Part shown: one piece after another, positions 14,040 through 29,999 of the stretch
How positions within the stretch are numbered: the stretch's first letter is position 1
Layout: each line of letters starts with the position of its first letter
Origin: a virus
Strand: one strand, 5' to 3'
DNA length: 39,966 bases
Virus record (IMG/VR): IMGVR_UViG_3300028800_000186
Location: 1-39,966 of that record
Made by a program: the position numbers and the translations under genes
The notes under the pieces: model-generated
What the model saw: only the letters and a program-made list of their open reading frames with translations
Databases searched by the model: none
Told to the model about the DNA's origin: nothing

Positions 14040-14061
14040 AACCAAATCCTCCGCTTGGTTT

Positions 14062-14124
14062 GCCATCATCAGTGCCGGGGGAACCACCCGCCGGCAGAGG
14101 CCCGACCTCCTCGGGCCTTTCGGC
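14062..14124 (-). ncRNA. Type II hammerhead ribozyme, copy A1
   Basis: Reading the minus strand: helix II GCC (14124-14122), GAAA (14121-14118), helix III GGCCCGA / UCGGGCC closed by GGAGG (14117-14099), cleavage doublet U-C (14098-14097), helix I UGCCGG / CCGGCA with apical GGG-UGGUU-CCC, then CUGAUGA (14072-14066), one extra U, and GGC (14064-14062). All core residues of the hammerhead are present in type II order. Predicted cleavage is between 14097 and 14096. The single U inserted after CUGAUGA is the only departure. The tail AACCA can pair with the UGGUU loop. Confidence 0.9.
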
Positions 14125-14130
14125 TATAGA

Positions 14131-15286: not shown

Positions 15287-16261
15287 TCAGGCGGCGGCCT
15301 TGATCGCGAGGTCCAACGCCCGCTTCTTGTACTGGGCGCCCTTGCCCAACCAGGCCGAGGACAGGCCAGTGTCGCGCGTCTTCCCGAGATCGTGATCCAC
15401 CACGAAGGTGACCGCGTTCAGCGCACCCCACCACGTGCCCTTGGCCGTGTTGAGGTTCTGGCCCGGCGCCTTGACAAGGGCCAGCTCCAGCTTGTCGAAC
15501 GTCTTGTTCTTGTCGCCGCCGACCAGGATCTCTTCCCGGGCTTCGGCGGTCAGCTCCAGCACGTCGGCGAAGTACTCGCGCACCGCCTTGGGCTCGGCCT
15601 TGGTCTTGGCGAGATGCTTGCTGATGTCGGCCAGCTCCTCGCTCTGCTTGACCGCCAGCCCGAGGGCCGCTTCGGCCGCCTGCTTGGTGGCTTCGTTGAA
15701 CGCCGTCGCATGCGGCATCCGATAGACGTTCTGGTTCGGCCGGCCCCGCAAGGACGCGCCGATGGCCGCCTGCATCGTGTTCATGCACACCACCCGGATG
15801 GCGGTGTACTGGAACAGCAGCGGCTTGCCGTACTCGTGCGGGCTCATCATCAGCAAGTAGGTCTTCATCTGGTCGGCCTTGCTGAGGCTGAAGTCCGCCT
15901 TGACCTTGGCGAGGCCCCAAATGTAGAGGCCATCGCGAAGCGAGCCGGCGGTTTCCATTTCCATCTTGCCGGCAATGCAGAACTTCGTGAAGAAGTCCAT
16001 GGCGTCTTCGTTCTGGACCGGCTTGTAGACTTTGCCGACCACCGAGAGGACCTTGTTGTCGCTCTCGCGCACCAGCCCGAACTTGTTGGTCACGATCGCG
16101 CCGGACTCGGTGACCAGCTTCTCGGTCTTAACCCGCCACAGGATCTGCGCGGCCTCGCACATCTCCTTGGGCGACAGCTTGTTGCTGACCGGGTTACCGA
16201 GGCCATGCCAGGGCAGGCCGCCGGACTTCGCATAGGCCATCGTCTCGACTTCGTGGGACAT
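15287..16261 (-). CDS. DUF932 (phage/plasmid-like) protein
   Basis: 324 aa. The start MSHEVETMAYAKSGGLPWHGLG and later blocks (ILWRVKTEKL, VYKPVQNEDAMDFF, LVMMSPHEYGKPLLFQYTAIRVVCMNT-like segment, NAVTFVVDHDLGK) match the DUF932/TIGR03299 family found on plasmids and phages. The function is not established; suggestions in other systems include interference with host defence or replication, which I cannot support here. Full length for the family. A CCCGGAGG site precedes it. Confidence 0.88.
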   Translation of the reverse strand: MSHEVETMAYAKSGGLPWHGLGNPVSNKLSPKEMCEAAQILWRVKTEKLVTESGAIVTNKFGLVRESDNKVLSVVGKVYKPVQNEDAMDFFTKFCIAGKMEMETAGSLRDGLYIWGLAKVKADFSLSKADQMKTYLLMMSPHEYGKPLLFQYTAIRVVCMNTMQAAIGASLRGRPNQNVYRMPHATAFNEATKQAAEAALGLAVKQSEELADISKHLAKTKAEPKAVREYFADVLELTAEAREEILVGGDKNKTFDKLELALVKAPGQNLNTAKGTWWGALNAVTFVVDHDLGKTRDTGLSSAWLGKGAQYKKRALDLAIKAAA

Positions 16262-16282: not shown

Positions 16283-16332
16283 GGTGCCAATCGCACCCGA
16301 GGCCAGCCGGCGCCCGGCTGGTCCCTACTGCG
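16283..16332 (-). ncRNA. Structured intergenic RNA, family C copy C2
   Basis: Minus strand: CGCAGUAGGGACC leads into CCAGCCGG-GCG-CCGGCUGG (16321-16303, 8 bp), followed by GGUGC-GAUUG-GCACC (16297-16283). AUCGCA before the first hairpin can alternatively pair with UGCGAU inside the second (6 bp), and the equivalent pairing in C1 has one mismatch. It sits between the stop of the 16338 gene and the DUF932 ribosome site. Confidence 0.55.
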
Positions 16333-16337
16333 ATCCG

Positions 16338-16613
16338 CTATCGCTTCGTCTTCCTTTCAGCCCATAACGAATCATACTCGGGCGTTACGGGGATCTGCGC
16401 CGACCGGCCCGCTTTCGTAACTGCGTAGATCAGGAACCGCTCGCCGGGCACCCGCCGCGAGGCGCGGGCCTTGGCCTCGGGCCATGTGTCGAATTGCTCA
16501 CGCTGCTGGCCCGGGCCGTTGCCCCGCGAAATGTAGGTGAAGTGAATGGCGTCCCTGAACACCTGGTGCTCGAACGCCAACCAGCCGGGAATTGCCTTAG
16601 CACGCTTGGTCAT
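16338..16613 (-). CDS. Hypothetical protein
   Basis: 91 aa (MTKRAKAIPGWLAFEHQVFR...). GGAGG lies 6 nt before the ATG. The segment PGQQREQFDTWPEAKARASRRVPGERFLIYAVTKAG looks like a small alpha/beta domain ('W-x-E-A...A...R' as in short phage proteins with ERFLI-Y-V). No known function. Flanked 5' by B1 and 3' by C2. Confidence 0.6.
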   Translation of the reverse strand: MTKRAKAIPGWLAFEHQVFRDAIHFTYISRGNGPGQQREQFDTWPEAKARASRRVPGERFLIYAVTKAGRSAQIPVTPEYDSLWAERKTKR

Positions 16614-16628: not shown

Positions 16629-16676
16629 TTGGCACTCAATCGAGGGGCGGCGAGGCCGCCCCTCTCAGAATGTCAA
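16629..16676 (-). ncRNA. Family B RNA element, copy B1
   Basis: Minus strand: P1 UUGACAUUC / GAGUGCCAA (one A-C mismatch), internal loop UGA / GAUU, P2 GAGGGGCGGC / GCCGCCCCUC with loop CUC. The UGA in UUGACA is the stop codon of the 16673-16981 gene, and the element ends 8-15 nt before the GGAGG of the next gene. Confidence 0.8.
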
Positions 16677-16981
16677 TCGTTATAGATCACCACCTTCATG
16701 TCAGCATCCGTTTCCGGCTGACCCGCGGCCAATTTGTAGTGCCAAGCCACCGTATCGCCCTCGGCGTCCTTCTCGATCCGGTCCTGTACGAACACCGCTT
16801 GGCCGTAGGGCTTGTCGCCCTTGCCGGGCGACACCACCGTCAGCCCGACATCGCATGCGTCGTCATAGACCCGTTCGGGAGTAAGCCCTTTGAGGTCTGA
16901 AGCTTCGGCCACCAGCGTCTTGGTCGTCGGCGACCAAGTGAAGCGCCTGATGTCGATCGGACAAGGTCTCAGCAAAGTCAT
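16673..16981 (-). CDS. Hypothetical protein
   Basis: 102 aa from MTLLRPCPIDIRRFTWSP; GGAGG is 5 nt upstream of the ATG. Beta-strand pattern with RRFTWSPTTKTLVAEASDLKG and DKPYGQAVFVQDRIEKDAEGD, ending MKVVIYND. Not recognised. The stop codon UGA is part of element B1. Confidence 0.6.
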   Translation of the reverse strand: MTLLRPCPIDIRRFTWSPTTKTLVAEASDLKGLTPERVYDDACDVGLTVVSPGKGDKPYGQAVFVQDRIEKDAEGDTVAWHYKLAAGQPETDADMKVVIYND

Positions 16982-17000
16982 CACATCCTCCATCGTTTCG

Positions 17001-17048
17001 TTGGCACTCAATCGAGGGCGCCTCGTGGGCGCCCTCTCAGAATGTCAA
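17001..17048 (-). ncRNA. Family B RNA element, copy B2
   Basis: P1 UUGACAUUC / GAGUGCCAA, loop UGA / GAUU, P2 GAGGGCGCC / GGCGCCCUC with loop CACGA. P2 differs from B1 in sequence and length but stays fully paired. It contains the stop codon of the DUF6011 gene. Confidence 0.8.
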
Positions 17049-17659
17049 AGCACCTTGACCTCAGGCGCTACCGTCTCGATGCCCCAAGGCAGCCCGTAGC
17101 GTTCCGCACAATCGGGTCCGTAACCCACTGCCAGCGACCGGCCGCCGTTGCCGTGAAGCTCGCGCCCGCAGAAACAGCACTCGGCGGTGCGCTGGCCGAT
17201 CGCCGCCGCAATCCCGGCCGGGTCCGAGGCCAAGGCTACCAGCTTGACCGCAATGCCCGGATAGGCATCCGCCGCCGCGACCGGCCGCCACTCATGGGCA
17301 GCGGTGATCTTGCCGAGATATTCGCCATCGCGGCCCTTGACGTAGATTGCGCCGGGGTTTGTCCCGGTCGCCTTGGCCGGCGACAACACAAAGCCGTCCA
17401 TGCGGATCTTCGCCCGCGGCCCGTACTGCAAGGCCCGATCGAACAGCACCTTGAGCCGTTCGAGGCCAGCGCCTGCCACCGTCATCGCGGCGGGCTTGGG
17501 CGCCGCCGTGACCTTCTCGGCCAGCTTGACGATCCAGTCCGCCTGTTTCGGCGAAGGGAACCGCGCCGCCAGGATGGACCGCGCGAAATCCTGCTGAGTC
17601 GGGGGCAGCTTGGCGACGTTGTCGGCCAGCGCCTGCCGGGCGGTCATGACGTCCATCAT
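17045..17659 (-). CDS. DUF6011 domain protein
   Basis: 204 aa from MMDVMTARQALADNVAKLPP or the next Met. The N-terminal part is helical and Ala-rich; residues about 100-150 form a beta domain (KIRMDGFVLSPAKATGTNPGAIYVKG). The C-terminus CCFCGREL...SLAVGYGPDCAERYGLPWG is the zinc-binding DUF6011 signature (C-x2-C ... GYGPxCAxxYGLPW). Function unknown in the family. Flanked by hammerhead A3 (3' side, feeding its own leader) and B2. Confidence 0.8.
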   Translation of the reverse strand: MMDVMTARQALADNVAKLPPTQQDFARSILAARFPSPKQADWIVKLAEKVTAAPKPAAMTVAGAGLERLKVLFDRALQYGPRAKIRMDGFVLSPAKATGTNPGAIYVKGRDGEYLGKITAAHEWRPVAAADAYPGIAVKLVALASDPAGIAAAIGQRTAECCFCGRELHGNGGRSLAVGYGPDCAERYGLPWGIETVAPEVKVL

Positions 17660-17677
17660 TGTATCCTCCATCGGTTT

Positions 17678-17738
17678 GCCTCATCGGCGGCGAGGGAACC
17701 ACCCATCGCCGGACCCCCGACCTCCCGGGAGTTTCGGC
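17678..17738 (-). ncRNA. Type II hammerhead ribozyme, copy A3 (variant core)
   Basis: Minus strand: GCC (17738-17736), GAAA (17735-17732), helix III CUCCCG / CGGGGG with loop GGAGGU, cleavage doublet U-C (17713-17712), helix I CGGCGA / UCGCCG with apical GGG-UGGUU-CCC, then CCGAUGA (17687-17681) and GGC (17680-17678). The core has C in place of U4 (CUGAUGA to CCGAUGA), which may slow cleavage. Predicted site between 17712 and 17711. Tail AACCG pairs with UGGUU. Confidence 0.8.
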
Positions 17739-17741
17739 CTA

Positions 17742-17906
17742 TCAATACTCGCTAGCGCGAGCGATACGCTCACGCTTGGCGGCCTCGTATTCTTCGAGAC
17801 CAGCCTCGTCTTCGTCTGTCCAGTTATCCTGGATTTCTGCTTCGTAATCAGTAATCCATTGACCATCACGAAGCACCCAACTGTCACTCCGAGAAAAGTC
17901 AGGCAT
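17742..17906 (-). CDS. 54-aa acidic protein
   Basis: MPDFSRSDSWVLRDGQWITD is followed by an acidic helix (YEAEIQDNWTDEDEAGLEEY) and a basic end. GGAGG sits 7 nt before the ATG and the stop is 3 nt before hammerhead A3. The reading frame is clean with typical codon use. Its acidic character suggests a DNA-mimic or protein-binding peptide, as an inference only. Confidence 0.6.
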   Translation of the reverse strand: MPDFSRSDSWVLRDGQWITDYEAEIQDNWTDEDEAGLEEYEAAKRERIARASEY

Positions 17907-17918
17907 TTTGCACCCTCC

Positions 17919-17930
17919 TTTTCGGCTATC
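17919..17930 (-). ncRNA. Truncated hammerhead remnant
   Basis: GAUAGCCGAAAA on the minus strand is identical to the 5' end of the hammerheads (helix II strand plus GAAA box) and runs straight into AGGAGG. Helix III, the cleavage site, helix I and the CUGAUGA box are missing, so this copy cannot self-cleave. It occupies the usual stop-to-Shine-Dalgarno gap. Confidence 0.6.
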
Positions 17931-17931
17931 G

Positions 17932-18189
17932 CTAGGCCTCGACCTCGGCCTTGGCGTCGTGCCCGCCGTTGATTAGGCGGGCGATCTCGGCCCACATCTC
18001 CTTGTCGGAAATCGCGCGGTCCGTATCGGTCTGAGTCATCCCGATGTAGCGCGTGATCATGCTGGCGCCGTTAGTAACGCGGCGGCCGTGGCGTGACCCG
18101 CCAAAATTCGGAAAGACCTCGCCGACGTTCAGCATGTGCACCTCGCAGGCGCGCCCGCTGCCGTACTTGATCGTCAGAACCTTGGCCAT
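17932..18189 (-). CDS. Hypothetical protein
   Basis: 85 aa, MAKVLTIKYGSGRACEVHML..., with GGAGG 5 nt before the ATG. The N-terminal half is beta-rich, the second half (TDTDRAISDKEMWAEIARLINGG) helical. Not recognised. Its mRNA would begin with hammerhead A4 helix I after cleavage. Confidence 0.6.
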   Translation of the reverse strand: MAKVLTIKYGSGRACEVHMLNVGEVFPNFGGSRHGRRVTNGASMITRYIGMTQTDTDRAISDKEMWAEIARLINGGHDAKAEVEA

Positions 18190-18207
18190 ACTATCCTCCG
18201 CTGGTTT

Positions 18208-18269
18208 GCCTCATCAGGCGGCCGGGAACCACCCGAACCGCGAGGCCCGACCTCCTCGGGCCTTTCGGC
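18208..18269 (-). ncRNA. Type II hammerhead ribozyme, copy A4
   Basis: Minus strand: GCC (18269-18267), GAAA (18266-18263), helix III GGCCCGA / UCGGGCC with loop GGAGG, cleavage doublet U-C (18243-18242), helix I GCGG / CCGC with an inner CGGG / CCCG and apical UGGUU, CUGAUGA (18217-18211), GGC (18210-18208). Fully consensus. Predicted cleavage between 18242 and 18241, leaving a 52-nt leader. Tail AACCA is complementary to UGGUU. Confidence 0.93.
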
Positions 18270-18272
18270 TTC

Positions 18273-18467
18273 TCAGATTGAGGGGGCCGGCGGCTTGCGC
18301 CGCATGGCCCCGCGTGCGATCTCTCGATCAAGCCAGCGCTGACTTATCGCATTCAATGTCACCACCGGCAAGGTTTCATCCTCGGCGGCCTCGGCTTCGT
18401 ACCGGAGGCACGTCGGGCAGTCGCCGTGCTTGTTCAGCCGGCGACCATGCAAGCTGCAAAGTCTCAT
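18273..18467 (-). CDS. Small zinc-finger-like protein
   Basis: 64 aa; MRLCSLHGRRLNKHGDCPTC gives a C-x2-H ... C-x2-C cluster at the N-terminus. The rest is charged helix (ISQRWLDREIARGAMRRK). ATG overlaps the previous stop (ATGA). Confidence 0.6.
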   Translation of the reverse strand: MRLCSLHGRRLNKHGDCPTCLRYEAEAAEDETLPVVTLNAISQRWLDREIARGAMRRKPPAPSI

Positions 18468-18655
18468 GCGACCTGCTCCACCGTCAGCTTGAACTCGGTG
18501 CCATCAGCGAAAACCAGCACCACCTCGCCCCGCTCTTTTCGGCCTTCGCCTTCGCGCTGCGTGGGCTTGGTCATCGCCCGGGTTTCGACGAGGCCCTGTT
18601 CCTGAAGGAATGTCGCCTCTTCGGCGGCCTCAGCCAGCCAATCGAACATCATCAT
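18464..18655 (-). CDS. Small hypothetical protein
   Basis: 63 aa from MMMFDWLAEAAEEATFLQEQ with AAAGG 8 nt upstream. A helical N-terminus precedes a beta hairpin (GEVVLVFADGTEFKLTVEQVA). Not recognised. The gap upstream holds TGCCAATGATGGAGG, which matches the 3' flank of family B elements, so a B element may once have stood here. Confidence 0.55.
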   Translation of the reverse strand: MMMFDWLAEAAEEATFLQEQGLVETRAMTKPTQREGEGRKERGEVVLVFADGTEFKLTVEQVA

Positions 18656-18675
18656 TTTGTTCACCTTTCCCTCCA

Positions 18676-18807
18676 TCATTGGCAGCGCCTTATGCCGCCA
18701 TCTGGTTCAACTCGGCAGCGCGCGCGATAGCCTCGGCCGCCGAGTTGAACCATTCCCGCAGTCGCGCGGTCGAGGACCGCGCCGGACTTTTCCGCGATGT
18801 AGCGCAT
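18676..18807 (-). CDS. 43-aa small protein, possibly frameshifted
   Basis: ATG lies 8 nt from GGAGGG. The first 18 codons (MRYIAEKSGAVLDRATAG) look natural, but the rest in this frame is Arg/Gly-rich. One base later, the sequence WFNSAAEAIARAAELNQMAA then a stop at 18690-18692 reads far more like protein. A one-base insertion near GCGGGAATGG, or +1 frameshifting, would join the two. A 13-bp perfect inverted repeat (18704-18716 with 18739-18751) lies inside. Confidence 0.45.
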   Translation of the reverse strand: MRYIAEKSGAVLDRATAGMVQLGGRGYRARCRVEPDGGIRRCQ

Positions 18808-18825
18808 CTTACTTCCCTCCGTTGC

Positions 18826-18874
18826 TTGGCACTCAATCGAGGGGCCAAAGCTTTGGCCCCTCTCAGAGCGTCAA
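18826..18874 (-). ncRNA. Family B RNA element, copy B3
   Basis: P1 UUGACGCUC / GAGUGCCAA: two bases differ from the other copies (AU to GC on the 5' side) and pairing is kept as G-U and C-G. Loop UGA / GAUU and the A-C mismatch are unchanged. P2 is GAGGGGCCAAA / UUUGGCCCCUC, a different sequence, fully paired. Contains the stop codon of the 18871 gene. Confidence 0.8.
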
Positions 18875-19083
18875 TCCTTCAGGGTCTTGAGGAAGTGACC
18901 TTCCCACAGGTCATCCCGCACAAGGCCGACCCCCGGAATGCACACCGGCGTATCCAGCCGGACCCGGTACATGCCGTCCTCAATATCCGTGATCGTGCCG
19001 GTCTGGCCGAAGAATTCCGGCATGCCGCCGCCCTTCAGAATGCGAACGTTGCGGCCGACCCGTGACTCGCTAGCTCTTGGCAT
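18871..19083 (-). CDS. Small KOW/SH3-like protein
   Basis: 70 aa: VGRNVRILKGGGMPEFFGQTGTITDIEDGMYRVRLD has the G-x-x-V-R-I ... G-x-x-G-T-I ... Y-R-V pattern of KOW/SH3-type barrels that bind nucleic acid or protein. GGAGG is 5 nt before the ATG. Role unknown. Confidence 0.6.
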   Translation of the reverse strand: MPRASESRVGRNVRILKGGGMPEFFGQTGTITDIEDGMYRVRLDTPVCIPGVGLVRDDLWEGHFLKTLKD

Positions 19084-19276
19084 GATATCCTCCTGTCAGG
19101 TGGTTCAACAAAAGGCCGCCGCCGGCATCAAGCTCGTGCCGTATTTCGGCGGCCAGCACCTCGACCCTCGCTTGTTTCGCGGCCTGCCGCGATTTCGCCG
19201 CGTGCTGGGCTTGGGCCTTGGTCAGTTTTTCTCGCTCCAGCCGGGCCGCTTTCAAGCGCGCCCGAATTGCGTCCAC
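19070..19276 (-). CDS. Charged helical small protein
   Basis: 68 aa from a GTG 5 nt after GGAGG (VDAIRARLKAARLEREKLTK...). Most of it is Ala/Arg/Lys/Glu helix, likely coiled coil. Its 3' end overlaps the next gene by 14 nt. A slightly upstream ATG overlapping the ribosome site is the alternative start. Confidence 0.5.
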   Translation of the reverse strand: MDAIRARLKAARLEREKLTKAQAQHAAKSRQAAKQARVEVLAAEIRHELDAGGGLLLNHLTGGYHAKS

Positions 19277-19290
19277 TTCAGCCTCCATCG

Positions 19291-19338
19291 TTGGCACTCA
19301 ATCAAGGGCGCCTCGTGGGCGCCCTCTCAGAATGTCAA
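19291..19338 (-). ncRNA. Family B RNA element, copy B4
   Basis: P1 UUGACAUUC / GAGUGCCAA, loop UGA / GAUU, P2 GAGGGCGCC / GGCGCCCUU with loop CACGA; the basal P2 pair is G-U instead of G-C. Contains the stop codon of the 19335 gene. Confidence 0.8.
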
Positions 19339-19625
19339 GTGCTGGCCCATCCGAAAAAGAGCCATTCGCCATTGCCAAGCGCGATGCACCCGGCCGGCCC
19401 CCACTTGTCGGCGATCCGCCGGTCGTCCGCATCCATAAGGCGGTCGGCCGTCTCGCCGGCCGTCTTGCCGGGGTCCGGCTGGATCATCACAAAGTGCCCT
19501 TTTTCGGCAATCGTGCCGGTATATCCGCCATGGCCGTGCTCACGCTGTGCGGCCATTACCGCGCGGTCGAAGGCGCCTTGGGCCGTCTTGCCCTTGGCCA
19601 CCATTTTGAATGTCGTACCGCCCAT
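19335..19625 (-). CDS. Hypothetical protein with GYTGTIAEK motif
   Basis: 96 aa from MGGTTFKMVAKGKTAQGAFD. The string REHGHGGYTGTIAEKGHFVMI recalls a small uncharacterised family seen on phages and conjugative plasmids (E/H-G-x-x-GYTGTIAEK); this is from memory. The fold looks like alpha/beta with a C-terminal GEWLFFGWAST. GGAGG is 5 nt upstream of the ATG. Confidence 0.65.
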   Translation of the reverse strand: MGGTTFKMVAKGKTAQGAFDRAVMAAQREHGHGGYTGTIAEKGHFVMIQPDPGKTAGETADRLMDADDRRIADKWGPAGCIALGNGEWLFFGWAST

Positions 19626-19639
19626 TTCATCCTCCATCG

Positions 19640-19687
19640 TTGGCACTCAATCGAGGGGCGGCCTCGCCGCCCCTCTCAGAATGTCAA
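19640..19687 (-). ncRNA. Family B RNA element, copy B5
   Basis: P1 UUGACAUUC / GAGUGCCAA, loop UGA / GAUU, P2 GAGGGGCGGC / GCCGCCCCUC with loop GAG. Contains the stop codon of the 19684 gene. Confidence 0.8.
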
Positions 19688-19980
19688 GCCTTGGCGGCGA
19701 CCCAGGCGTCGTATCCCGCCCGCGTCACCCGTATCCAGGCGTCCCGGCCTTTGCCGCCGGAAACCACCAACCCCTTCTGGGCCAGCGTGCCGCAAAGGGC
19801 CGCCATCTGCTTCGGCGGTAGTTCCTCGCTGGGCTTGAGGCTGGTCTGGCCGAGGCAATTTGACCAAAGCTCATCGCCGCAGTCTTCGTACCTAGTCGGC
19901 GTCCCACCGTTCGCGCTGGTGAAAAGGTTATGGACCAACGCATGCATCGCCTTGAGTTCGAGATCGGTCATCGTGGCCAT
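19684..19980 (-). CDS. Hypothetical winged-helix-like protein
   Basis: 98 aa from MATMTDLELKAMHALVHNLF. The second half (PPKQMAALCGTLAQKGLVVSGGKGRDAWIRVTRAGYDAW) has a helix-turn-helix plus wing pattern with 'L..KGLV' as in small phage DNA-binding proteins. GGAGG is 5 nt upstream of the ATG. Target unknown. Confidence 0.6.
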   Translation of the reverse strand: MATMTDLELKAMHALVHNLFTSANGGTPTRYEDCGDELWSNCLGQTSLKPSEELPPKQMAALCGTLAQKGLVVSGGKGRDAWIRVTRAGYDAWVAAKA

Positions 19981-19999
19981 TGTAGCCTCCATCGTCAGG

Positions 20000-20047
20000 T
20001 TGGCATTCAATCGAGGGGCGGCCTCGCCGCCCCTCTCAGAATGTCAA
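20000..20047 (-). ncRNA. Family B RNA element, copy B6
   Basis: P1 UUGACAUUC / GAAUGCCAA: the usual U-G pair becomes U-A. Loop UGA / GAUU and the A-C mismatch are unchanged. P2 GAGGGGCGGC / GCCGCCCCUC with loop GAG. Contains the stop codon of the 36-aa peptide gene. Confidence 0.8.
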
Positions 20048-20154
20048 TCATTGTATTCGGCGATCTCGATGTGCGGCGCCGCATCGGGGTTAAATTCGAT
20101 GGCCTCGCAAGAGACCGCGATCAGCGCCAGCAACGCGATAATCCGAATAATCAT
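20044..20154 (-). CDS. 36-aa lipoprotein-like peptide
   Basis: MIIRIIALLALIAVSCEAIE starts the peptide: a short basic end, a hydrophobic stretch and LIAVSC resembling a lipobox with Cys16 at the cleavage point. The remainder is acidic (PDAAPHIEIAEYND). GGAGG is 8 nt upstream of the ATG. First gene of the small-gene operon. Confidence 0.55.
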   Translation of the reverse strand: MIIRIIALLALIAVSCEAIEFNPDAAPHIEIAEYND

Positions 20155-20176
20155 TGGCTCATCCTCCGGGGTTAGT

Positions 20177-20198
20177 CGGCCGGGCACCACCCCGGCCG
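20177..20198 (-). ncRNA. Hairpin resembling hammerhead helix I
   Basis: Minus strand CGGCCGGG-GUGGUG-CCCGGCCG, 8 bp, between element B7 and the 36-aa gene. The apex GGGUGGUGCCC resembles the hammerhead apical GGGUGGUUCCC, and the downstream AACCCC before GGAGG could pair with GGGGU. No CUGAUGA or GAAA box is present, so it is not a ribozyme as it stands. Confidence 0.4.
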
Positions 20199-20199
20199 T

Positions 20200-20247
20200 T
20201 CGGCACTCAATCGAGGCGCCGCATTTCGGCGCCTCTCAGAATGTCGT
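20200..20247 (-). ncRNA. Family B RNA element, copy B7
   Basis: P1 ACGACAUUC / GAGUGCCGA: one U-A pair of the other copies is replaced by C-G (a double compensatory change) while the A-C mismatch is kept. Loop UGA / GAUU, P2 GAGGCGCC / GGCGCCUC, loop GAAAUGC. No convincing gene ends here, so this copy may be in the operon leader. Confidence 0.75.
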
Positions 20248-20606
20248 CATCATCCCGCCGCCATCACCCCGCTTGCTTGCCGTCCTCGCCCTCGATTGGC
20301 GAGATCGCCTAAGCCCATCGTTTCGGATGAGGCCATGGCGCTTGTTCAAGTGGCGGCAAGCCGCGAAAGTGTTAGGTTTGGGTTCGCCCTGGGTGCGCTT
20401 AGATCCTTAGGGCAGGTTGCCGGGTTGTCCGACCAAGAGGCTTTCCGCTTCCGCCCCGTGGGTTGCTGTTGCCTTCTTCGGGGGTACCGGCTTCGTGCTG
20501 CCATCGTGTCTGCGTTGTTTCCGAGTCGCAAGCTCGTCACGACCTGAATATGCGCTTTATCCCGGCCTGCCTCAACAAAATAATGCGTAACGAATGGAAA
20601 TAAATT

Positions 20607-20644
20607 ACGACAAATCCGCGCCAAGTTGGCATGGAACTTGTCGT
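20607..20644. repeat. Nested inverted repeat
   Basis: ACGACAA (20607-20613) and TTGTCGT (20638-20644) enclose a second perfect repeat GCCAA-G-TTGGC (20620-20630). The two-level dyad in an AT-rich stretch fits an operator or cruciform. On the minus strand it overlaps the weak promoter candidate. Confidence 0.5.
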
Positions 20645-20717
20645 GAAAAATTGTAAAGTAATTCAGCGAGTTACGAGAGGCGTCAGTAAACGTGGTTAGA
20701 CGCGCATCTCGGGCTGT

Positions 20718-20787
20718 CCATAGGCCGATATAGCGGCCCTGCTAGTTACCTCTAGAAACACGTCCTAGGGGTAACCAGGGCCTATGG
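20718..20787. terminator. Long imperfect hairpin after polymerase operon
   Basis: GGCCCTG / CAGGGCC and GTTACC / GGTAAC stack into a long hairpin (20735-20782), with CCATAGGCC (20718-20726) and GGCCTATGG (20779-20787) giving an alternative outer pairing that shares bases with the first. Located just after the last gene of the polymerase operon. No T-tract, so termination is uncertain. Confidence 0.4.
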
Positions 20788-20805
20788 AATGGCAGGACGC
20801 CTGCC

Positions 20806-21180
20806 TTAACCGGCGCCGACCAAAGCAGCTGGGGGCCGCGGGATGTTCCGGCAGAGCGGCCGCCATAGGTGCAGGCAGTAGGGATGGAAATTGATGTGGT
20901 CGGCCGGCGGCACATGCAACTGCATAGCCGTCTCGCTGTCCCTAAAAAAGAGGCGCTTGACTTGTTCCATCTCCTCCCATGAGGGGCAGCGCTTTTGGCA
21001 AGAGACGCTGACGTGATCCCATCCCATGCCAACGGAGGCCAGCACTTTGAGAGGTTCGCCAGTAGCGATCGAGGGCACAAGGAAGGCGCCCCACTTATGA
21101 TCACCGAAGCTGCCGCCGAAGAATTGCGCTACCTCAGGGGTGCGCATGCGGTAATGATCCAGGGACGTAAGATCGCGCAT
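20806..21180 (-). CDS. Conserved phage protein (DUF7694-like)
   Basis: 124 aa. Blocks MRDLTSLDHYRMRTPEVAQFFGG, VLASVGMGWDHVSVSCQKRCPSWEEME and HVPPADHINFHPYCLHLWRP are those of a conserved small phage protein family of unknown function; several His/Cys residues (RCPSW, HINFHPYC) could bind metal. The ATG lies 3 nt after the polymerase stop, so it is co-expressed with replication proteins. Confidence 0.75.
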   Translation of the reverse strand: MRDLTSLDHYRMRTPEVAQFFGGSFGDHKWGAFLVPSIATGEPLKVLASVGMGWDHVSVSCQKRCPSWEEMEQVKRLFFRDSETAMQLHVPPADHINFHPYCLHLWRPLCRNIPRPPAALVGAG

Positions 21181-21183
21181 GGC

Positions 21184-23811
21184 TCAAACGGCTCGCTTGG
21201 CAATGGCGCTTCGGCGCCCCGACTCATAGCTGTCGGTCCCGCCGCCGTTCGGGTCGGTTCCGAACCACTCATCGCTGGAGTACTTGCCGATCTCGACCAT
21301 ATCGTACCAGGTATCGCCGACCGAGACCTCGACCTGGATCGGCACATTGACGAACGAGTAGGGCACCTGGAGCATGGTGTCGATCGACTGTTCAATCAGA
21401 TCGTCAAGGCGATCTTCCGGGAAGAGCATCGTAAGATCGTCGTGGATGTTCATGATGGGCTGCAGGTCCCAATCGCCGCATTCCGACATCCGGTTCATCG
21501 CATCGAGGACGATATCGGCCGCGACACCCTGGATAGGCGTATTGAAGATTTGGTTGGACGACAGCGGCGCCCGGCGCCGCCGGCCGGTCATCAATTCGAT
21601 GTAGCCAAGGCGATTGAAGTCGGCGAGGGTCGTATCTTGCCACTTTTTGCTGGCGCTGAACACTTTCCAGAACGCGGCTTGTTGGCGGCCCGCCACATCC
21701 TCGGGAATGCCGAGGCGCTCGCTTACCGTCTTGGGCCAAGCGCCGAAGAATGAGGCGAATACGAAAGCGCCCTTGACGTCATCGCGGAACTTTTTCATGA
21801 CATCTTTGTCATCGACGAACTTGCGACCGCCGATTCGAGCAGGATAGTCCAAGGCGATCCGGCGCGCCCATTCGGCATGGACGTCATAGCGTTCCCACAG
21901 GGCCTTTACGAACACCGGATCGCGCGAAGCCATGGCGATGACCCGGGCCTCGATTTGGCCGTAGTCGATGGCGACCAGCTTGTAGCCAGGGGGCGCCTTG
22001 ACCCCCTTGCGCACCTCTTTGCCCTCGGCGTTGCGCTTGGGGTAGTTCTGCTCGTTCGGCTCCTCGCTCGATAGGCGCCATGTCTCGGCCACCACCGTGT
22101 TGAGGATGGGGTGCATGAGGTCGTCGGGGTAGACGTATTCGCCGCCCGGCAGCATGCCTTGAATGTAGGTGCTATCCAGCTTTGACCACTGGCGCCAATT
22201 CAGCAGCGCCTTGCCCACTGGGTCCTTGAGGTTCTTGAGCACGGCGGCATTGACCGAGTCCGACCCCTTCTTCGTCATGCCCACATCGGCCTTGAGGATA
22301 TCCCGCAAGAGGACGACGTTGTCGGGGCCGGAGCCCGGCTTGAACAAGCGGCCGGTGCGGCGCTTGAACTCGAGTACGGCCGGGCTGCTGAAGATGGTCT
22401 CCTCGGCCGCCGCTACGCGCTTGGAGTACTTATCATGCAAGGCCACGGTGGCCTCAAAGTCCACCGGAACGCCCTTGATCTGCGTAAGGACCACGGTGGG
22501 CACTTGGCGGAGCTTGAGATCATAGGCGCCGTCCAGACCTTCGGCAGCAATCCGCGCCGCAAGCTCATCGAAGACCAGGCGATGGTATTTAGCGTCCATG
22601 CCGTTGTAGGGGAGGATGCGGTCCAAGGGCTCGGCCGCCATGTTCTTCCGATCGACGCGGCTCAATTCCTTGATATCGAGCCCGAAGCAAATCGTTGTCT
22701 GGAACCACAGGGCAAGCGGGTCCTTGCTCTTGCCGACCCGCTCGTCGAGGGTAGCCGCTTGCGTCATCGTATCGTGCCAGGGGCCGCGCCGGATGATATC
22801 GGCGCCGTAGAAGTGCGCGGTCCATTCAAGCTCAAAGGCGAGGTTGTGCACCAGCTTGGGGTTGTCGCTGGTCAGGAAAGTTTTCCAGGCCTCGTCCAGC
22901 ACCAGGCGATCGGCCGAAGACCAACCCGCTTCGCGATGATCCATCGCGAACGCCATCGTGCGATCCGGCAGCGAAACCGCCGCGGTAAGAATGCGGGCGC
23001 CTTCGCGGTAGGGCCGTTTATCCGAGGTTTCATAATCGACCCCGGCGCCATCCCGTCGCCCGCCTGCCTCGTGCAGGAAGGCGGCCACGCGTTCGATGTC
23101 GCCAGCCTTGCGGCCCGTAATGCACTCGACCCCGGCCTTAGCCGCATCGGCGGTATGGACGACCGGCTCCGGCAAGGTGCCGACTTCGTCAAAGGCCCGC
23201 TTGAGGTCGAACGCGAACGCGTGCTCCATCGATGAGCCGTAGTCTCGGGCGCTGTCAACAGAGCGTTTGCGCCCTCGCAGAATCTCAAGCGGGTCTAGCA
23301 TGGGATAGAACCAGCACGTGTGCGTGCCGATACGAACCGGCATCCTGCGGCCTCGCCACTGGCCGATGCCGTTCAGCCCGAGGACCCAATGCAGCGGGAT
23401 GTTGCCCATCCCGAAAATGGCGGTGGGCTGGCTAGCCTCAATATCTTTAGTAACCGACGGCCGGCAGCACTCGACCTCGATTTCCGATGGCTCGCGATCC
23501 TTGGGCGGCCGCGTGCGGACCACATAGTTCCAGCGGATGTACGGCGCCCATTCGGCCGGGATGCGCATGCGGAGGACTCGGCCGTCTTCGCCGGCGAATT
23601 GTCGCCCCGCGGCATCATCATCGGACCCCGGGGCGGCCCCCAGAATGAGGATTGTAGGCTCCTTGGCCCCGGAGGCCGGCATCTTGCCGTGGGCGCATGA
23701 GGCGTTGTCCAAGGGGCATGCGCGGCATTCCATGCGGTGTAGTAGCTCGGTATGCCGGCTGCCGGACTTTACCCGAGTCGAGGTAGGGTCCGGCGTAAAA
23801 AAGAACCCCAT
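21184..23811 (-). CDS. Family A DNA polymerase with N-terminal uracil-DNA-glycosylase-like domain
   Basis: 875 aa. Residues about 25-215 look like a family 4/5 UDG domain: CRACPLDNASC, ILILGAAPGSDDDAAGRQFAGEDGRVLRM, NYVVRTRPPKDREPSEIEVECCRP, AIFGMGNIPLHWVLG. The family's cluster Cys before 'RPP' is Thr here, so cluster and activity are doubtful. A 3'-5' exonuclease domain follows (GVDYETSD, LVHNLAFELEW, YNGMDAKYH). The polymerase domain has motif A (VAIDYGQIEARV), motif B (KGAFVFASFFGAW) and motif C (NIHDDLTML). It is the phage replicative polymerase, downstream of its clamp. The fused domain might scan for uracil or serve only structurally. Confidence 0.93.
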   Translation of the reverse strand: MGFFFTPDPTSTRVKSGSRHTELLHRMECRACPLDNASCAHGKMPASGAKEPTILILGAAPGSDDDAAGRQFAGEDGRVLRMRIPAEWAPYIRWNYVVRTRPPKDREPSEIEVECCRPSVTKDIEASQPTAIFGMGNIPLHWVLGLNGIGQWRGRRMPVRIGTHTCWFYPMLDPLEILRGRKRSVDSARDYGSSMEHAFAFDLKRAFDEVGTLPEPVVHTADAAKAGVECITGRKAGDIERVAAFLHEAGGRRDGAGVDYETSDKRPYREGARILTAAVSLPDRTMAFAMDHREAGWSSADRLVLDEAWKTFLTSDNPKLVHNLAFELEWTAHFYGADIIRRGPWHDTMTQAATLDERVGKSKDPLALWFQTTICFGLDIKELSRVDRKNMAAEPLDRILPYNGMDAKYHRLVFDELAARIAAEGLDGAYDLKLRQVPTVVLTQIKGVPVDFEATVALHDKYSKRVAAAEETIFSSPAVLEFKRRTGRLFKPGSGPDNVVLLRDILKADVGMTKKGSDSVNAAVLKNLKDPVGKALLNWRQWSKLDSTYIQGMLPGGEYVYPDDLMHPILNTVVAETWRLSSEEPNEQNYPKRNAEGKEVRKGVKAPPGYKLVAIDYGQIEARVIAMASRDPVFVKALWERYDVHAEWARRIALDYPARIGGRKFVDDKDVMKKFRDDVKGAFVFASFFGAWPKTVSERLGIPEDVAGRQQAAFWKVFSASKKWQDTTLADFNRLGYIELMTGRRRRAPLSSNQIFNTPIQGVAADIVLDAMNRMSECGDWDLQPIMNIHDDLTMLFPEDRLDDLIEQSIDTMLQVPYSFVNVPIQVEVSVGDTWYDMVEIGKYSSDEWFGTDPNGGGTDSYESGRRSAIAKRAV

Positions 23812-23819
23812 AAGGAAGG

Positions 23820-24878
23820 TTACTCCGACCCCGAGATCCCAGCTATAAGGTAGACGAAATCCTCACCGCCAAAAAATACGAGCGCATCCGCCAGGACCAC
23901 CATGCGATCGACGTGCTTCAAGCCGCGCTTGGCCAGCGCCGGATTGAATGTGAGCCGGGCCGGCGGGCACTCATGTTCCAGGGCAACGCTGTCCCGCTCT
24001 ACCTCGGCATGCGATCCTTTGGCGGACAGCCGCGCCATCTTGGCCTGGACCTCGATTACGGCGCGGGGCGGCTGAACATCGGCGAGTACGGTAAGCGCCC
24101 GCTCTAGCGCCGGTTCCAGGCCTTGTGGGACGGCGACCGCGTTATTCCAGTTTTCATCCGTCACGTAGCGGCTGATGACCGTCTCGAAATCCTTGGGCGA
24201 TGAGACCTCGACCAGGCGGCCGAAGAGGCGCACGTCGTTCTCGGTCTCGACCATGATGTCGTTCTCGGACAGATCAACCTTGACGCCGGCCGAGCCAAGT
24301 CGTACGAGTTGCTGGCAGAAGGGCGTCGGCGCGATGAAGCGGCCTTCAGGCATGCCTTCCGGCGCATTGAGGATGGCGCGTGTTACGGTCTTGCTGTCGG
24401 TAGCGTAGATGGCGAGAGTGCCGGCGGCTATGATGAACGTTACGCCCATGTGCTCCGGCATAGCCGGATCATCGCCAACCGAGATCAGAACGCGCTCCAG
24501 CGCTGTGATGACCTCAGGCCCCCATATCGGCGGCTCTTCGCTTCGCCATTCCGGCTGCCATAGCGAACGATCAGCCGGGATTACAGCGAGCTTGAGCACG
24601 GCGCCCGCGGCCTTGAGCTTGGCTTCGCCGTTCTCGCCCATGTCCAGCGATATTTCGGCGGCACGAGATTGCCCAAGGACACCGAGCAGCGAGGCGCCAT
24701 GCACGGCGCCGGTAACGTCCGACTCAAACGGTAGCTCAAGCCCGATGATGTCGTTGTAGGCATGGATCGTTTGGCCCATGAGCCAGAAGTGCGTAAGGCC
24801 GGGCACCAACTCTTTGTTGGCCAGGGCCGGCGATAGCGTTTGCAGAATGGCCAGCAATTCGGTGCGTTGCGCTTTCAT
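23820..24878 (-). CDS. Sliding clamp, DnaN-like beta clamp
   Basis: 352 aa, close to the about 366 aa of bacterial beta. The N-terminus (RTELLAILQTLSPALANKELVPGLTHFWLMGQTIHAYNDIIGLELPF) follows the DnaN pattern of helix, loop, and strand carrying 'D-x-x-x-x-I/L'. The rest alternates strand and helix as in three-domain clamps (e.g. DFETVISRYVTDEN, MVVLADALVFFGGEDFVYLIAG at the end). It should ring DNA and tether the polymerase encoded 8 nt downstream, loaded by the AAA+ protein at 30370. Sequence similarity is remote; order and context support it. Confidence 0.75.
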   Translation of the reverse strand: MKAQRTELLAILQTLSPALANKELVPGLTHFWLMGQTIHAYNDIIGLELPFESDVTGAVHGASLLGVLGQSRAAEISLDMGENGEAKLKAAGAVLKLAVIPADRSLWQPEWRSEEPPIWGPEVITALERVLISVGDDPAMPEHMGVTFIIAAGTLAIYATDSKTVTRAILNAPEGMPEGRFIAPTPFCQQLVRLGSAGVKVDLSENDIMVETENDVRLFGRLVEVSSPKDFETVISRYVTDENWNNAVAVPQGLEPALERALTVLADVQPPRAVIEVQAKMARLSAKGSHAEVERDSVALEHECPPARLTFNPALAKRGLKHVDRMVVLADALVFFGGEDFVYLIAGISGSE

Positions 24879-24885
24879 TTGGCGG

Positions 24886-24963
24886 CTCCCTGCCTCATGC
24901 GAAAAGAGGGCGGCATGGGCGCCGCCCTCCTCTCAACGCATACGGTAGGCCGCCGGCAGGGAG
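24886..24963 (-). terminator. Long leader hairpin with intrinsic-terminator core
   Basis: Minus strand: outer CUCCCUGCC / GGCAGGGAG (24963-24955 with 24894-24886), inner AUGCG / CGCAU, and a core GAGGGCGGC / GCCGCCCUC (24929-24906) followed by UUUUC. The core plus U-run is a plausible intrinsic terminator or attenuator between the 24965 gene and the clamp gene. Confidence 0.5.
24934..24948 (-). promoter_or_regulatory. Candidate phage promoter motif
   Basis: CTACCGTATGCGTTG on the minus strand resembles CCCGTATGCTTTG found at the divergent promoters. It is about 55 nt upstream of the clamp start, inside the leader hairpin. Weaker than the 29.04 and 30.00 kb copies. Confidence 0.35.
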
Positions 24964-24964
24964 A

Positions 24965-25546
24965 TCAGGCGATGGCGCCGCCCGGCCACTTGCCCTGCTC
25001 CTGCAGCACGAAGATGAACTGCCGGCAGAAGGCCCGGGCCGATCGGATATAGGTCGGCGACGGATCGAAGCCGGACGCCTGGAGCTTGGTCTGCAGCTCG
25101 GCCTCGGTGGTATTCGGGTTCTTGATCATGACAGCGTGGATCGCCTTCGTCATCTTCCCGCGGCCGGACCCGCCCTCGCCCTTGGCCTTGGCGGCCTTCG
25201 GCGCGGCCGTCTTCGCCGCCGCCTTGGGCGCAGCCTTGGGAGCGGCGGTCTTGGCCGCAGCCGTCTTCGCCGCCACCTTGGGGCGACCGGGCGCCGGATC
25301 GGGGGCGATCCCCTCGGCCGGGGCATCCGGGAAAGGCTGCAGCGGCTGGCCCGCGAGCATCGCTTTCGTCGCGGCATTCACCCAGTCGTTCGCCGGCTTG
25401 CCGAGGCCTTCCCATTCCTCGTCCGACACGACGTCCTTGGTGCTGAACGCCGTGACGACCTTGGCCAGGAACGCATCTCGCGTCTCGCCGACCTTCCGCT
25501 TGACCTTGGATACTTTGATGATCGCCTTTTCGATATTGGTGGGCAT
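24965..25546 (-). CDS. Basic linker protein with histone-H1-like Ala/Lys/Pro segment
   Basis: 193 aa. N-terminal 75 residues are alpha-helical (EKAIIKVSKVKRKVGETRDAF...). Residues about 75-125 are an Ala/Lys/Pro-rich repeat (KTAAAKTAAPKAAPKAAAKT) like the tail of H1-type DNA-binding proteins. The C-terminal 60 residues (KAIHAVMIKNPNTTEAELQTKLQASGFDPSPTYIRSARAF) look like a winged helix. A DNA-binding or nucleoid role is likely but unproven. A TTGACA box and operator-like repeat precede it. Confidence 0.7.
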   Translation of the reverse strand: MPTNIEKAIIKVSKVKRKVGETRDAFLAKVVTAFSTKDVVSDEEWEGLGKPANDWVNAATKAMLAGQPLQPFPDAPAEGIAPDPAPGRPKVAAKTAAAKTAAPKAAPKAAAKTAAPKAAKAKGEGGSGRGKMTKAIHAVMIKNPNTTEAELQTKLQASGFDPSPTYIRSARAFCRQFIFVLQEQGKWPGGAIA

Positions 25547-25580
25547 GTGCTTTTCCTCTCAGGAGTTTAGTGGTTGGAAA

Positions 25581-25628
25581 CAAGTCATACGGGATGACGT
25601 ACTAAATGCACCTATCCCGTAATGTCAA
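25581..25628 (-). promoter_or_regulatory. Sigma70-type promoter with inverted-repeat operator
   Basis: Minus strand: perfect -35 TTGACA (25628-25623), then TTTAGT about 16 nt on as a poor -10. The inverted repeat TACGGGAT ... ATCCCGTA (25614-25621 and 25588-25595) brackets the -10, typical of a repressor site. The inner arm runs into CCCGTATGACTTG (25593-25581), similar to the phage motif at 29.04 and 30.00 kb. It lies 35-80 nt upstream of the 25546 start codon. Confidence 0.55.
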
Positions 25629-25642
25629 GGGAAAATACGAGA

Positions 25643-26224
25643 TTATCGAGTTGCGGCGCTGTTCGTTAGGAACCGCCGCACGACATCGAAAATGTCGCTC
25701 GACAGATTGATGCCGGTGATCCGGCAAACCCGTTCGTTCGGCGTCTCGCGCGTGCCATCTTCCTTGCGGTACGGCGTATTCATGAAGCCGCTAGATAGGG
25801 CTTTCAGCAAGACGAGCGCTTCAAGCGGGGCGTCGAGCAGCAAGGCCGCCACATCGGCGGCTTCGTTGTGCGGCTCCATCACGCTGTCGAAAAAGGTGTC
25901 GGGCGAATCGGATAGCTCGGACACCGGCACCTCGTTCAGGCGCCCGCGGTTGCGAGCCAGATCGGTAATGTGATTGCTGAATGTGCGCTGAACCAGCGCC
26001 ATGAAATGCTTCTGGTTGGTGGTCTCGTACTTGGCGGCAATCTTGCTGTAGCAGAGATAGCCGTCTTGGATGAGGTCGTCCAGCTGATACCAGGAAGCGA
26101 CGCGCCAGTAGTTTTGCCGGGCGGTATTGACGATCCAGCCGCGCAAGCCTCGATCGAGCTTGTCGTCTCCGACGAGAACGGCTGTCGGGCGAGGCGGCGC
26201 CTTGCTTGTTGATTGGGTTTTCAT
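25643..26224 (-). CDS. Phage sigma-70-like RNA polymerase factor
   Basis: 193 aa. Residues about 28-95 match sigma region 2: LRGWIVNTARQNYWRVASWYQLDDLIQDGYLCYSKIAAKYE then FMALVQRTFSNHITDLARNRGR, with the D-D-L-x-Q-D/E-G core polymerase-binding helix and an R-rich -10 recognition helix. The C-terminal part (PLEALVLLKALSSGFMN ... NERVCRITGINLSSDIFDVVRRFL) could be a degenerate region 4. It would redirect host RNA polymerase to phage promoters, possibly the CCCGTATG motif. GGGGA precedes the ATG. Confidence 0.75.
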   Translation of the reverse strand: MKTQSTSKAPPRPTAVLVGDDKLDRGLRGWIVNTARQNYWRVASWYQLDDLIQDGYLCYSKIAAKYETTNQKHFMALVQRTFSNHITDLARNRGRLNEVPVSELSDSPDTFFDSVMEPHNEAADVAALLLDAPLEALVLLKALSSGFMNTPYRKEDGTRETPNERVCRITGINLSSDIFDVVRRFLTNSAATR

Positions 26225-26375
26225 GTTCGTTTCCCCACAAAAGTTTTCGTATGCGAGAGAATGGCCGCCAGCCTGAAATCACCCGAGGCGGCCGGGTCGG
26301 GGTAGCCCGGAGGAAACCGGCCCGCTGGTGAGGCGGGCGGGCGAGGCGTACAGGCACACGCCTTAGCGGCACAAC
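26225..26375 (-). other. GC-rich structured leader of the sigma-like gene
   Basis: 151 nt between primase and the sigma-like gene. Contains GGCGU/ACGCC and GGCCGG/CCGGCC hairpins on the minus strand, but no hammerhead core and none of the family B or C signatures. No gene or clear promoter seen. Confidence 0.4.
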
Positions 26376-27395
26376 CTAGCGATTGCGTACGGCGTCCGCA
26401 ACCTGTTTTAATGCCGGCTTCGTAAACTCCGCAGGATCGTCAAATCCGTTAGGAACAAGAGCCTTCCGCAAGCCAAGCGATTGCATGCGCGGCCCCATGC
26501 GCACAGTATCCAGCAAGGCGTCACGATCGAGGATCAAGGCCCGGTGCTTGTAGCGAGGGCTGATCTTCATGAGCAATTCGTACTGTACATCGCTCATCCG
26601 CTTGCCGAACAGGCATGTGCCGTGCACGCCGATGCCTCGCCCGAAGAAATCCATTCGTAAGCCATCAAGTGGCCCCTCGCCGATCAACAGCACGTCGCCG
26701 CCCGTCAGCTTGTCGTAATTCAGGAGGCAATCCGAGATGGCGCGCAGGGCTTGCGGCGTGCCGGACTCTTTTGCTTTTTCGGCATCTGTGCTGAGAGTGT
26801 CGTAACGAAGCGTTTCGGATTGCAGCACCGATCGGCCAGTCCAAGTTACCAGCACGCCGTCCATTTCGATCGGAATGACAATCCTATAACGGAAGCGCCC
26901 GCGAATGGTACACCGAAGTCCGTAATGCTCGGCAAGCTGAAGCGCTGCGAGGCGCCCATAGCCTCGGCTGTGCTCTAAGTAATCGACGAAGCGGCGACCA
27001 ATGCCTCGATCTTCAAGCGGGATGATGTCTTCGGTAAAGGCGATAGTGCGCGGCGCCAGCGCCTCGACCTTGGGCTTGCTCAGCATTTGTCGTACAGAGG
27101 TACCAAAGTCGTCAGGAAGGTCTACGCCAGCATTGTCGCCGGCAAGGCGTGAGGCTTCGGCAAACGAATAGCCGAGCAAGGCTTGAATAAGGCGGTGGGG
27201 CTTGCCGCCTCTATGGCTGGAATTGCGCCAGCATCCCCAAGCGCCGCTTATAAGGGACAAGCCTAGGTGGCGCCCCTGGTCGGCCGATCCGCAGAAAGGG
27301 CAGTGGATGACGATATTGCCGCGGGCGACGTTCTCGCCTCGATCGCTGTAGGCGATCCGGTGGCTTTTGACAAAGCGCAGCCATTCAAATCTCAC
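26376..27395 (-). CDS. DnaG-like DNA primase
   Basis: 339 aa. Zinc ribbon C32-x2-C35 ... C55-x5-H61 (HCPFCGSADQGRHLGLSL then WGCWRNSSH). The TOPRIM core is VLLIGEGPLDGLRM (E-G-P-x-D) with ALILDRDALLD (D-x-D). An intervening basic catalytic N-terminal region (RFRYRIVIPI) matches the RNA polymerase domain. It makes RNA primers for lagging-strand synthesis with the DnaB-like helicase two genes upstream. Shorter than bacterial DnaG, as it lacks the C-terminal helicase-binding domain. Start overlaps the upstream stop (ATGA). Confidence 0.88.
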   Translation of the reverse strand: MRFEWLRFVKSHRIAYSDRGENVARGNIVIHCPFCGSADQGRHLGLSLISGAWGCWRNSSHRGGKPHRLIQALLGYSFAEASRLAGDNAGVDLPDDFGTSVRQMLSKPKVEALAPRTIAFTEDIIPLEDRGIGRRFVDYLEHSRGYGRLAALQLAEHYGLRCTIRGRFRYRIVIPIEMDGVLVTWTGRSVLQSETLRYDTLSTDAEKAKESGTPQALRAISDCLLNYDKLTGGDVLLIGEGPLDGLRMDFFGRGIGVHGTCLFGKRMSDVQYELLMKISPRYKHRALILDRDALLDTVRMGPRMQSLGLRKALVPNGFDDPAEFTKPALKQVADAVRNR

Positions 27396-27595
27396 GATGG
27401 CCTCATCGCCTGGTACAGCGCCTCGCGCGTCAAGAGGATCGCTCCGTTCTGGTCCGTGATGATATCAGGCAAGATGAGGCCGGCAAAGTAGGCGCCGGTG
27501 GCGTAGACAAGCGCCCCGCGCAGCGTCGCGTGAGTGGATTTGGATGTAGCTGTTTGGTCAAATCCAATCCGCTGGTAGTAGAGAATGACTTTCAC
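27392..27595 (-). CDS. Small hypothetical protein between helicase and primase
   Basis: 67 aa: MKVILYYQRIGFDQTATSKS, then a helical/hydrophobic middle (LRGALVYATGAYFAGLILPD). Overlaps both neighbours by ATGA-type junctions, so it is in the replisome operon. Possible helicase-primase adaptor, purely by position. Confidence 0.6.
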   Translation of the reverse strand: MKVILYYQRIGFDQTATSKSTHATLRGALVYATGAYFAGLILPDIITDQNGAILLTREALYQAMRPS

Positions 27596-29010: not shown

Positions 29011-29039
29011 CGCAATCTCCCCACAAACCCGGCTTTAAT

Positions 29040-29052
29040 CAAAGCATACGGG
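29040..29052 (-). promoter_or_regulatory. Divergent promoter motif, leftward
   Basis: CCCGTATGCTTTG on the minus strand, about 30-40 nt upstream of the helicase start. The extended match to the rightward copy at 30000-30012 covers GC(A/G)CCCGTATGCTTTG(A/G)TT. No TTGACA-type -35 is visible. A phage-specific or middle promoter element is the simplest reading. Confidence 0.6.
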
Positions 29053-29228
29053 TGCTGGCCTCATCCGGGTTCTGCTGAGGGTGCAAGCGGCAAAGCTTGA
29101 CTACCCATACCCAAGTGGTCCAAGAGCCATTCTTGGGTTTGAACCTCGTCATGTATCTGCCGCAAGTACAACCATTCCATTGTTTGGCGTCAGGCATGGT
29201 TTCACCTCTTCTTTAAAAGAAAAACCCA

Positions 29229-29404
29229 TCAGAGCGGCGCGCCCTTCCTTGCGCGCCGCTCTGAGCTTGTGCGCGTAAGCGCACAAGCCAAACGCGCTGG
29301 CTGTGGCTTTAAGGCTTCGCGCGTGTGTGCGCGTAGACACAGCATCAGTGTCACGTTTGATTATCAGTCGATAATCCACAGGGCAAACTATGTTTGCCCT
29401 GTGG
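29229..29404. repeat. Array of five perfect hairpins
   Basis: In order: 14-bp TCAGAGCGGCGCGC dyad (29229-29264, loop CCTTCCTT); 10-bp GCTTGTGCGC dyad with GTAA loop (29265-29288); 5-bp GACAC/GTGTC (29336-29352); 7-bp GATTATC/GATAATC (29359-29376); 13-bp CCACAGGGCAAAC/GTTTGCCCTGTGG with a TAT loop (29376-29404). All are perfectly paired. Such packing is seen at single-strand initiation sites and origins, or could be transcribed regulatory RNA. Confidence 0.7.
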
Positions 29405-29456
29405 TCTGTCGATTGCCATCGTTTTTAGAGCAGCAATCACAGTCAAGACCAAGGTC

Positions 29457-29498
29457 ACATTTTGCCCTGCTGGATCAAAATGTCACTACAATTGTAGT
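29457..29498. repeat. Two AT-rich dyads
   Basis: ACATTTTG / CAAAATGT (29457-29464 and 29476-29483, 11-nt spacer) followed by the 14-bp palindrome ACTACAATTGTAGT (29485-29498). Both are candidate protein-binding or DNA-unwinding sites beside the hairpin array. Confidence 0.6.
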
Positions 29499-29945: not shown

Positions 29946-29999
29946 TGCCGTCTTAGCCGATTTGGTTTGCTACGGCCAAGCCTTTTCTTTTGCAAGGCG

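Follow-up and report, generated by a model that had tools for sequence, protein, structure and literature searches.

The stretch of viral DNA analysed here (the window) is the full IMG/VR record IMGVR_UViG_3300028800_000186, 39,966 bases long, in which matches to protein families identify the replication region of a tailed phage: a family A DNA polymerase (21184-23811, minus strand) and, elsewhere in the window, a clamp, a DnaB-like helicase, a primase and a UvsX-like recombinase. Between about 20250 and 14000 lies a series of small leftward genes, several of them without an assigned function, and it contains seven copies of a repeated element, family B, each 48-49 nucleotides (nt) long and lying on the minus (mRNA) strand. 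Every copy folds into an outer stem (P1), an internal loop and an inner stem (P2), and in six of them the stop codon of the upstream gene is part of P1. The copies are as follows.

16629..16676, minus strand: B1 hairpin; stop UGA of gene 16673-16981 within P1; gene 16338-16613 starts 15 nt downstream
17001..17048, minus strand: B2 hairpin; P1 holds the stop of gene 17045-17659; next start 19 nt downstream
18826..18874, minus strand: B3 hairpin, 49 nt; P1 holds the stop of gene 18871-19083; next start 18 nt downstream
19291..19338, minus strand: B4 hairpin; P1 holds the stop of gene 19335-19625; next start, a GTG, 14 nt downstream
19640..19687, minus strand: B5 hairpin; P1 holds the stop of gene 19684-19980; next start 14 nt downstream
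20000..20047, minus strand: B6 hairpin; P1 holds the stop of the 36-codon gene 20044-20154; next start 19 nt downstream
20200..20247, minus strand: B7 hairpin; CGA in place of U2-G3-A4; gene 20044-20154 starts 45 nt downstream

A preliminary description of this DNA had placed seven copies of an unrecognised structured RNA at these positions, and all seven are borne out. A covariance model built from them and run with filters off scores each copy at 68-76 bits, the next-best matches being the opposite strands of the same copies (at most 25 bits), and all other sequence in the window reaches at most 11.2 bits. The count of seven is firm for this record because the model separates the copies from everything else in the window. 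The RNA is also unrecognised in the sense intended: no family among the Rfam 15 covariance models matched the B elements, even at permissive thresholds (E up to 5).

The RNA reads 5'-UUGACAUUC UGA GAGG[apex]CCUC GAUU GAGUGCCAA-3'. P1 comprises eight pairs with a single A-C mismatch. Next comes a 3x4 internal loop (UGA/GAUU) with tandem G.A/A.G pairs possible, and P2 has 9-10 pairs closed by an apical loop of 3-5 nt. Predicted folding energies run from -24.6 to -29 kcal/mol, with z about -5 to -6 against shuffled sequence. Pairing is retained in 96.8% of 126 cells; seven base pairs show double-sided changes (six in P2 and one in P1, the latter in B7), giving 13 double-changed cells, and none of 500 shuffles reaches any of five pairing measures, although the copies are paralogues of one genome and their pairing is not independent evidence across genomes. 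The individual P1 changes that had been listed are all present: A-U to G-U and U-G to C-G in B3, U-G to U-A in B6 (single-sided, like those in B3) and U-A to C-G in B7. P2 had been described as changing in both sequence and length with pairing kept; the sequence does change and the pairing is kept, but the length is near constant, the hairpin between UGA and GAUU measuring 24 nt in B3 and 23 nt in all the others.

The A-C mismatch, previously taken as a sign of specific function, loses part of its force. In B1-B6 the UGA stop of the upstream gene occupies element positions 2-4 (U2-G3-A4), and the constancy of A4 needs no RNA explanation because in six of the seven copies it is a base of the stop codon; the unpaired C46, and A4 in B7, still need explaining. 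At B7 a TGATGA either lies just ahead of the element or overlaps its first base, and the upstream gene is not convincing. Immediately 3' of B7 (20170-20199, minus strand) is another GC-rich hairpin, CGGCCGGG..CCCGGCCG.

Which strand carries the element cannot be read from the pairing. An argument from G-U pairs fails, since a hypothetical plus-strand RNA pairs equally well (124/133 cells, against 122/133 for minus), and the transcribed strand is taken from gene context because pairing cannot distinguish the two. This equality, together with the apical hairpin of B1 being the exact reverse complement of the B5/B6 apex (CTC versus GAG loop, same arms), as if the tip had been flipped, speaks for a palindrome that acts in DNA, as a binding site or a mobile repeat, and does nothing as RNA. 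Such a role is nevertheless extremely improbable: the orientation of the copies is fixed relative to transcription, they overlap stop codons and they share their slot with ribozymes.

Variation among the copies is concentrated at the tip. All 15 apical columns vary, against 7 of 33 elsewhere (Fisher P about 2e-7, in a test that treats columns as independent whereas the apex can change in single events), while P1, the internal loop and the base of P2 are spared. The invariance of the loop and P1 may in part reflect recent descent. This pattern bears on two other explanations. One is that B is a passive stabiliser of 3' ends, an uncut hairpin that, in the manner of REP elements, blocks 3' exonucleases after cuts made elsewhere; the great stability of P2 and the location of the element directly behind the stop codon suit such a barrier, but it would not need a fixed loop, P1 sequence or P2 base, and these are spared where every apical column varies, making this explanation unlikely though by no means negligible. 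The other is that a phage or host protein (a translational repressor, an antiterminator or a processing factor) recognises the UGA/GAUU loop, in which tandem G.A pairs may form. The loop and adjoining pairs are indeed invariant or nearly so, and the operon has several small genes of unknown function among which a binding partner might lie; on the other side, no candidate RNA-binding protein was recognised, and the loop does not fit a kink-turn. In a kink-turn a three-nt bulge precedes tandem sheared G.A pairs, and the B sequence is rejected as one: one strand of the loop has a U beyond the possible G.A pairs and the opposite strand UU, with no three-nt bulge. A protein site of this type is accordingly judged distinctly unlikely.

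The setting of the elements is as regular as their structure. The block has 17 junctions between genes, and each of the 13 with a gap of at least 58 nt (from 20247 to 14039) holds one structured element, while the four of at most 27 nt hold none; as the upstream gene call of B7 is weak, 12 of 12 is the safe count of occupied roomy junctions. The occupants are the seven B copies, four type II hammerheads and two copies of a further hairpin, family C. Their starts range from -3 to +9 nt relative to the final base of the stop codon, and 8-45 nt separate their ends from the following start codon, which bears out the placing of B at junctions between genes, in the stop-to-start position that the hammerheads also take. 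The other occupants are listed here.

14054..14125, minus strand: type II hammerhead HH1; 45.6 bits, exceeding the Rfam gathering score
14388..14458, minus strand: type II hammerhead HH2; 36.5 bits, half a bit below the gathering score of 37
17670..17739, minus strand: type II hammerhead HH3; 32.3 bits; core CCGAUGA instead of CUGAUGA
18200..18270, minus strand: type II hammerhead HH4; 32.6 bits
15222..15286, minus strand: family C hairpin C1; two-part stem and internal loop; directly 3' of the stop of gene 15287-16261
16284..16336, minus strand: family C hairpin C2; directly 3' of the stop of gene 16338-16613

Given its CCGAUGA core, HH3 may be weak or inactive. C1 and C2 have in common AGGGACCAGCCG...CGGCTGG...GGTGCG.TTGG with an internal loop, and in C1 an apical GUGGU could pair with an ACCAC just downstream. 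Hammerheads directly after stop codons also occur in an unrelated viral contig, which has two of type II (27-94 and 427-495, minus strand). After them come a sigma-70-like promoter, upstream of the following gene, and a repeated leader, AAGCCGCCACCCG..AGGGGCGCA.

The shared slot invites the idea that B is a new, very small self-cleaving ribozyme replacing the type II hammerheads at 7 of the 13 junctions, and the conserved internal loop would agree with it. However, B has one small loop with no second conserved unpaired segment and no visible pseudoknot, it matches no ribozyme in Rfam, and half of the A-C mismatch that had been cited is a stop codon, so that a ribozyme is very improbable. Little likelihood, of a similar order, attaches to a role in translation, by which the hairpin would keep the next ribosome-binding site open or hand terminating ribosomes from stop to start over a folded bridge. 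In B1-B6, P1 does bring the stop to a distance of about 14-19 nt from the next start, but the predicted openness from Shine-Dalgarno sequence to start is not systematically raised (native 0.40-0.67, shuffled 0.41-0.56).

Relatives of B were sought widely. Exact two-arm patterns gave only chance matches among the matches listed in IMG/VR and chance matches only in about 85,000 species genomes, these either lacking P2 pairing or lying inside reading frames; such patterns require near-exact arms and diverged relatives would escape them. No alignment was returned by blastn of the region, or of one B element, against phages. The B covariance model (R1) found no copy in 20 polymerase-related loci or in ten whole viral records related by polymerase or hammerhead, where the window's own record served as positive control, and the pattern was absent from 289 bacterial genomes of the class to which one chance-match genome belongs. 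A near-identical contig (99.96%) spans 23690-33811 only. Another related phage contig carries an array of 24 tRNA matches (16878-21070).

Other structured sequence lies outside the block. A strongly structured non-coding segment (20717-20788, minus strand), with outer stem TCCATAGGCC/GGCCTATGGA, separates the genes on the polymerase side from the beginning of the B operon. An intergenic hairpin at 24893-24945 (minus strand), GAGGGCGGC/GCCGCCCTC followed by TTTT, has the appearance of an ordinary terminator, and a long two-part inverted repeat at 29365-29415 separates oppositely directed genes.

Family B is probably a set of message-punctuation signals. Within that class, and with somewhat less than even confidence, the elements are read by analogy as T7-like processing and 3'-end signals, in which RNase III probably cuts the internal loop. 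T7 was compared at the positions of its RNase III sites, and the sequences there show the expected motif. When folded, R0.5, R1.1, R4.7 and R18.5 have a P2 of 10 pairs, a loop of 3-5 nt, an asymmetric internal loop and a P1 of 9-11 pairs; B has the same architecture, with a P2 of 9-10, a loop of 3-5, an asymmetric 3x4 internal loop and a P1 of 8. The likeness extends to position. The stops of T7 gene 0.4 (1431-1433) and gene 18 (36820-36822) lie within the 5' arms of R0.5 and R18.5, just as the upstream stop lies within the 5' arm of B1-B6, and R4.7 begins on the base that immediately follows the gene 4.5 stop. Like the T7 signals, B lies between same-strand genes, which presumably share a single transcript. 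A scan for this shape yields about one chance match on each strand when the composition is that of the window. On the window's minus strand it recovers six B copies and misses B7; on the T7 plus strand it gives six matches, four of them known sites, and in the polymerase relatives scattered matches only.

Ten such processing sites are described in T7 (PMC9135205). The R1.1 signal lies between genes 1 and 1.1, and its asymmetric internal loop has 4/5 nt (PMC6121014); cutting takes place at one bond and gives pieces of 47 and 13 nt (PMC4858673). For B, the hairpin with its kept pairing, the stop-to-start position shared with the hammerheads and the likeness to T7 architecture are observed; we infer that B RNA is cut, at which place and by which enzyme, and that the resulting ends protect the RNA. 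P1, the G.A/A.G-capable loop and P2 would together make up roughly two turns of helix, which RNase III could bind, and the asymmetric loop would limit cutting to one strand, probably the 3' side (GAUU). The upstream message would then end, on its 3' side, in the highly stable P2 hairpin, and the downstream message would open with a short leader (about 25-30 nt) that contains its Shine-Dalgarno sequence; the hammerheads would do the same job at neighbouring junctions by self-cutting. Variation at the apex that spares P1, the loop and the base of P2 is what recognition centred on the internal loop would lead one to expect. Three functions had been put forward in the preliminary description, namely a new ribozyme, an RNase III-type site and a stability element; the RNase III-type site fits best, through the T7 architecture and the stop placement, and the new ribozyme keeps just its shared position.

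Several points weigh against processing by RNase III. The stem is short and carries an A-C mismatch, which might make it a poor substrate, and the length needs of RNase III can differ in other bacteria (PMC6121014). The low variation in P1 may stem from recent duplication, and no homologue turned up in the searches. B also has no sequence in common with the T7 sites, its loop being UGA/GAUU, and the recurrent part is the upper stem in T7 but the lower half in B. B is known from one genome among those searched, and would represent T7-like processing without sequence kinship to T7 sites.

One phage operon is apparently divided at every roomy junction by three unrelated families of structured RNA, one of them a known ribozyme. 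If the B elements are processing sites, self-cutting and apparently enzyme-cut RNAs do one job side by side in nature. The purpose of phage hammerheads, long unclear, would then become directly testable as message punctuation, and T7-style processing would extend to a phage without sequence kinship to T7.

Among known systems, an intrinsic terminator is rejected for B: there is no U-tract, GAUUGAGUGCC follows the hairpin and no terminator was called at any copy. In repetitive layout B resembles the SAS/ESAS elements of cluster K mycobacteriophages, in which a 17-base-pair (bp) ESAS inverted repeat stands upstream of the 13-bp SAS GGGATAGGAGCCC (PMC3203893). Both occur as many intergenic inverted-repeat copies with a variable spacer, in one orientation, near starts and among non-structural genes. 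However, RNA pairing is not maintained between the ESAS arms, which were interpreted as DNA-binding sites (PMC3203893), whereas B maintains its pairing, starts at the stop codon and lacks a 13-bp SAS; identity with ESAS is rejected, the B flanks containing GATGGAGG and no SAS. REP-type stabilising hairpins are likewise repeated, GC-rich and intergenic, but B differs in its fixed internal loop and exact stop-codon register. The type II hammerhead (RF02276) shares the junction slot and the operon, as well as a CUGA before the stem and a GA after it, although B is a single stem that matches no Rfam family and lacks the CUGAUGA/GAAA core, three-way junction and pseudoknot. Unlike the T7 sites, B has no adjoining phage promoter and stands among hammerheads in the same operon, yet in stem lengths, asymmetric loop and stop placement the T7 RNase III processing signal is its nearest functional match.

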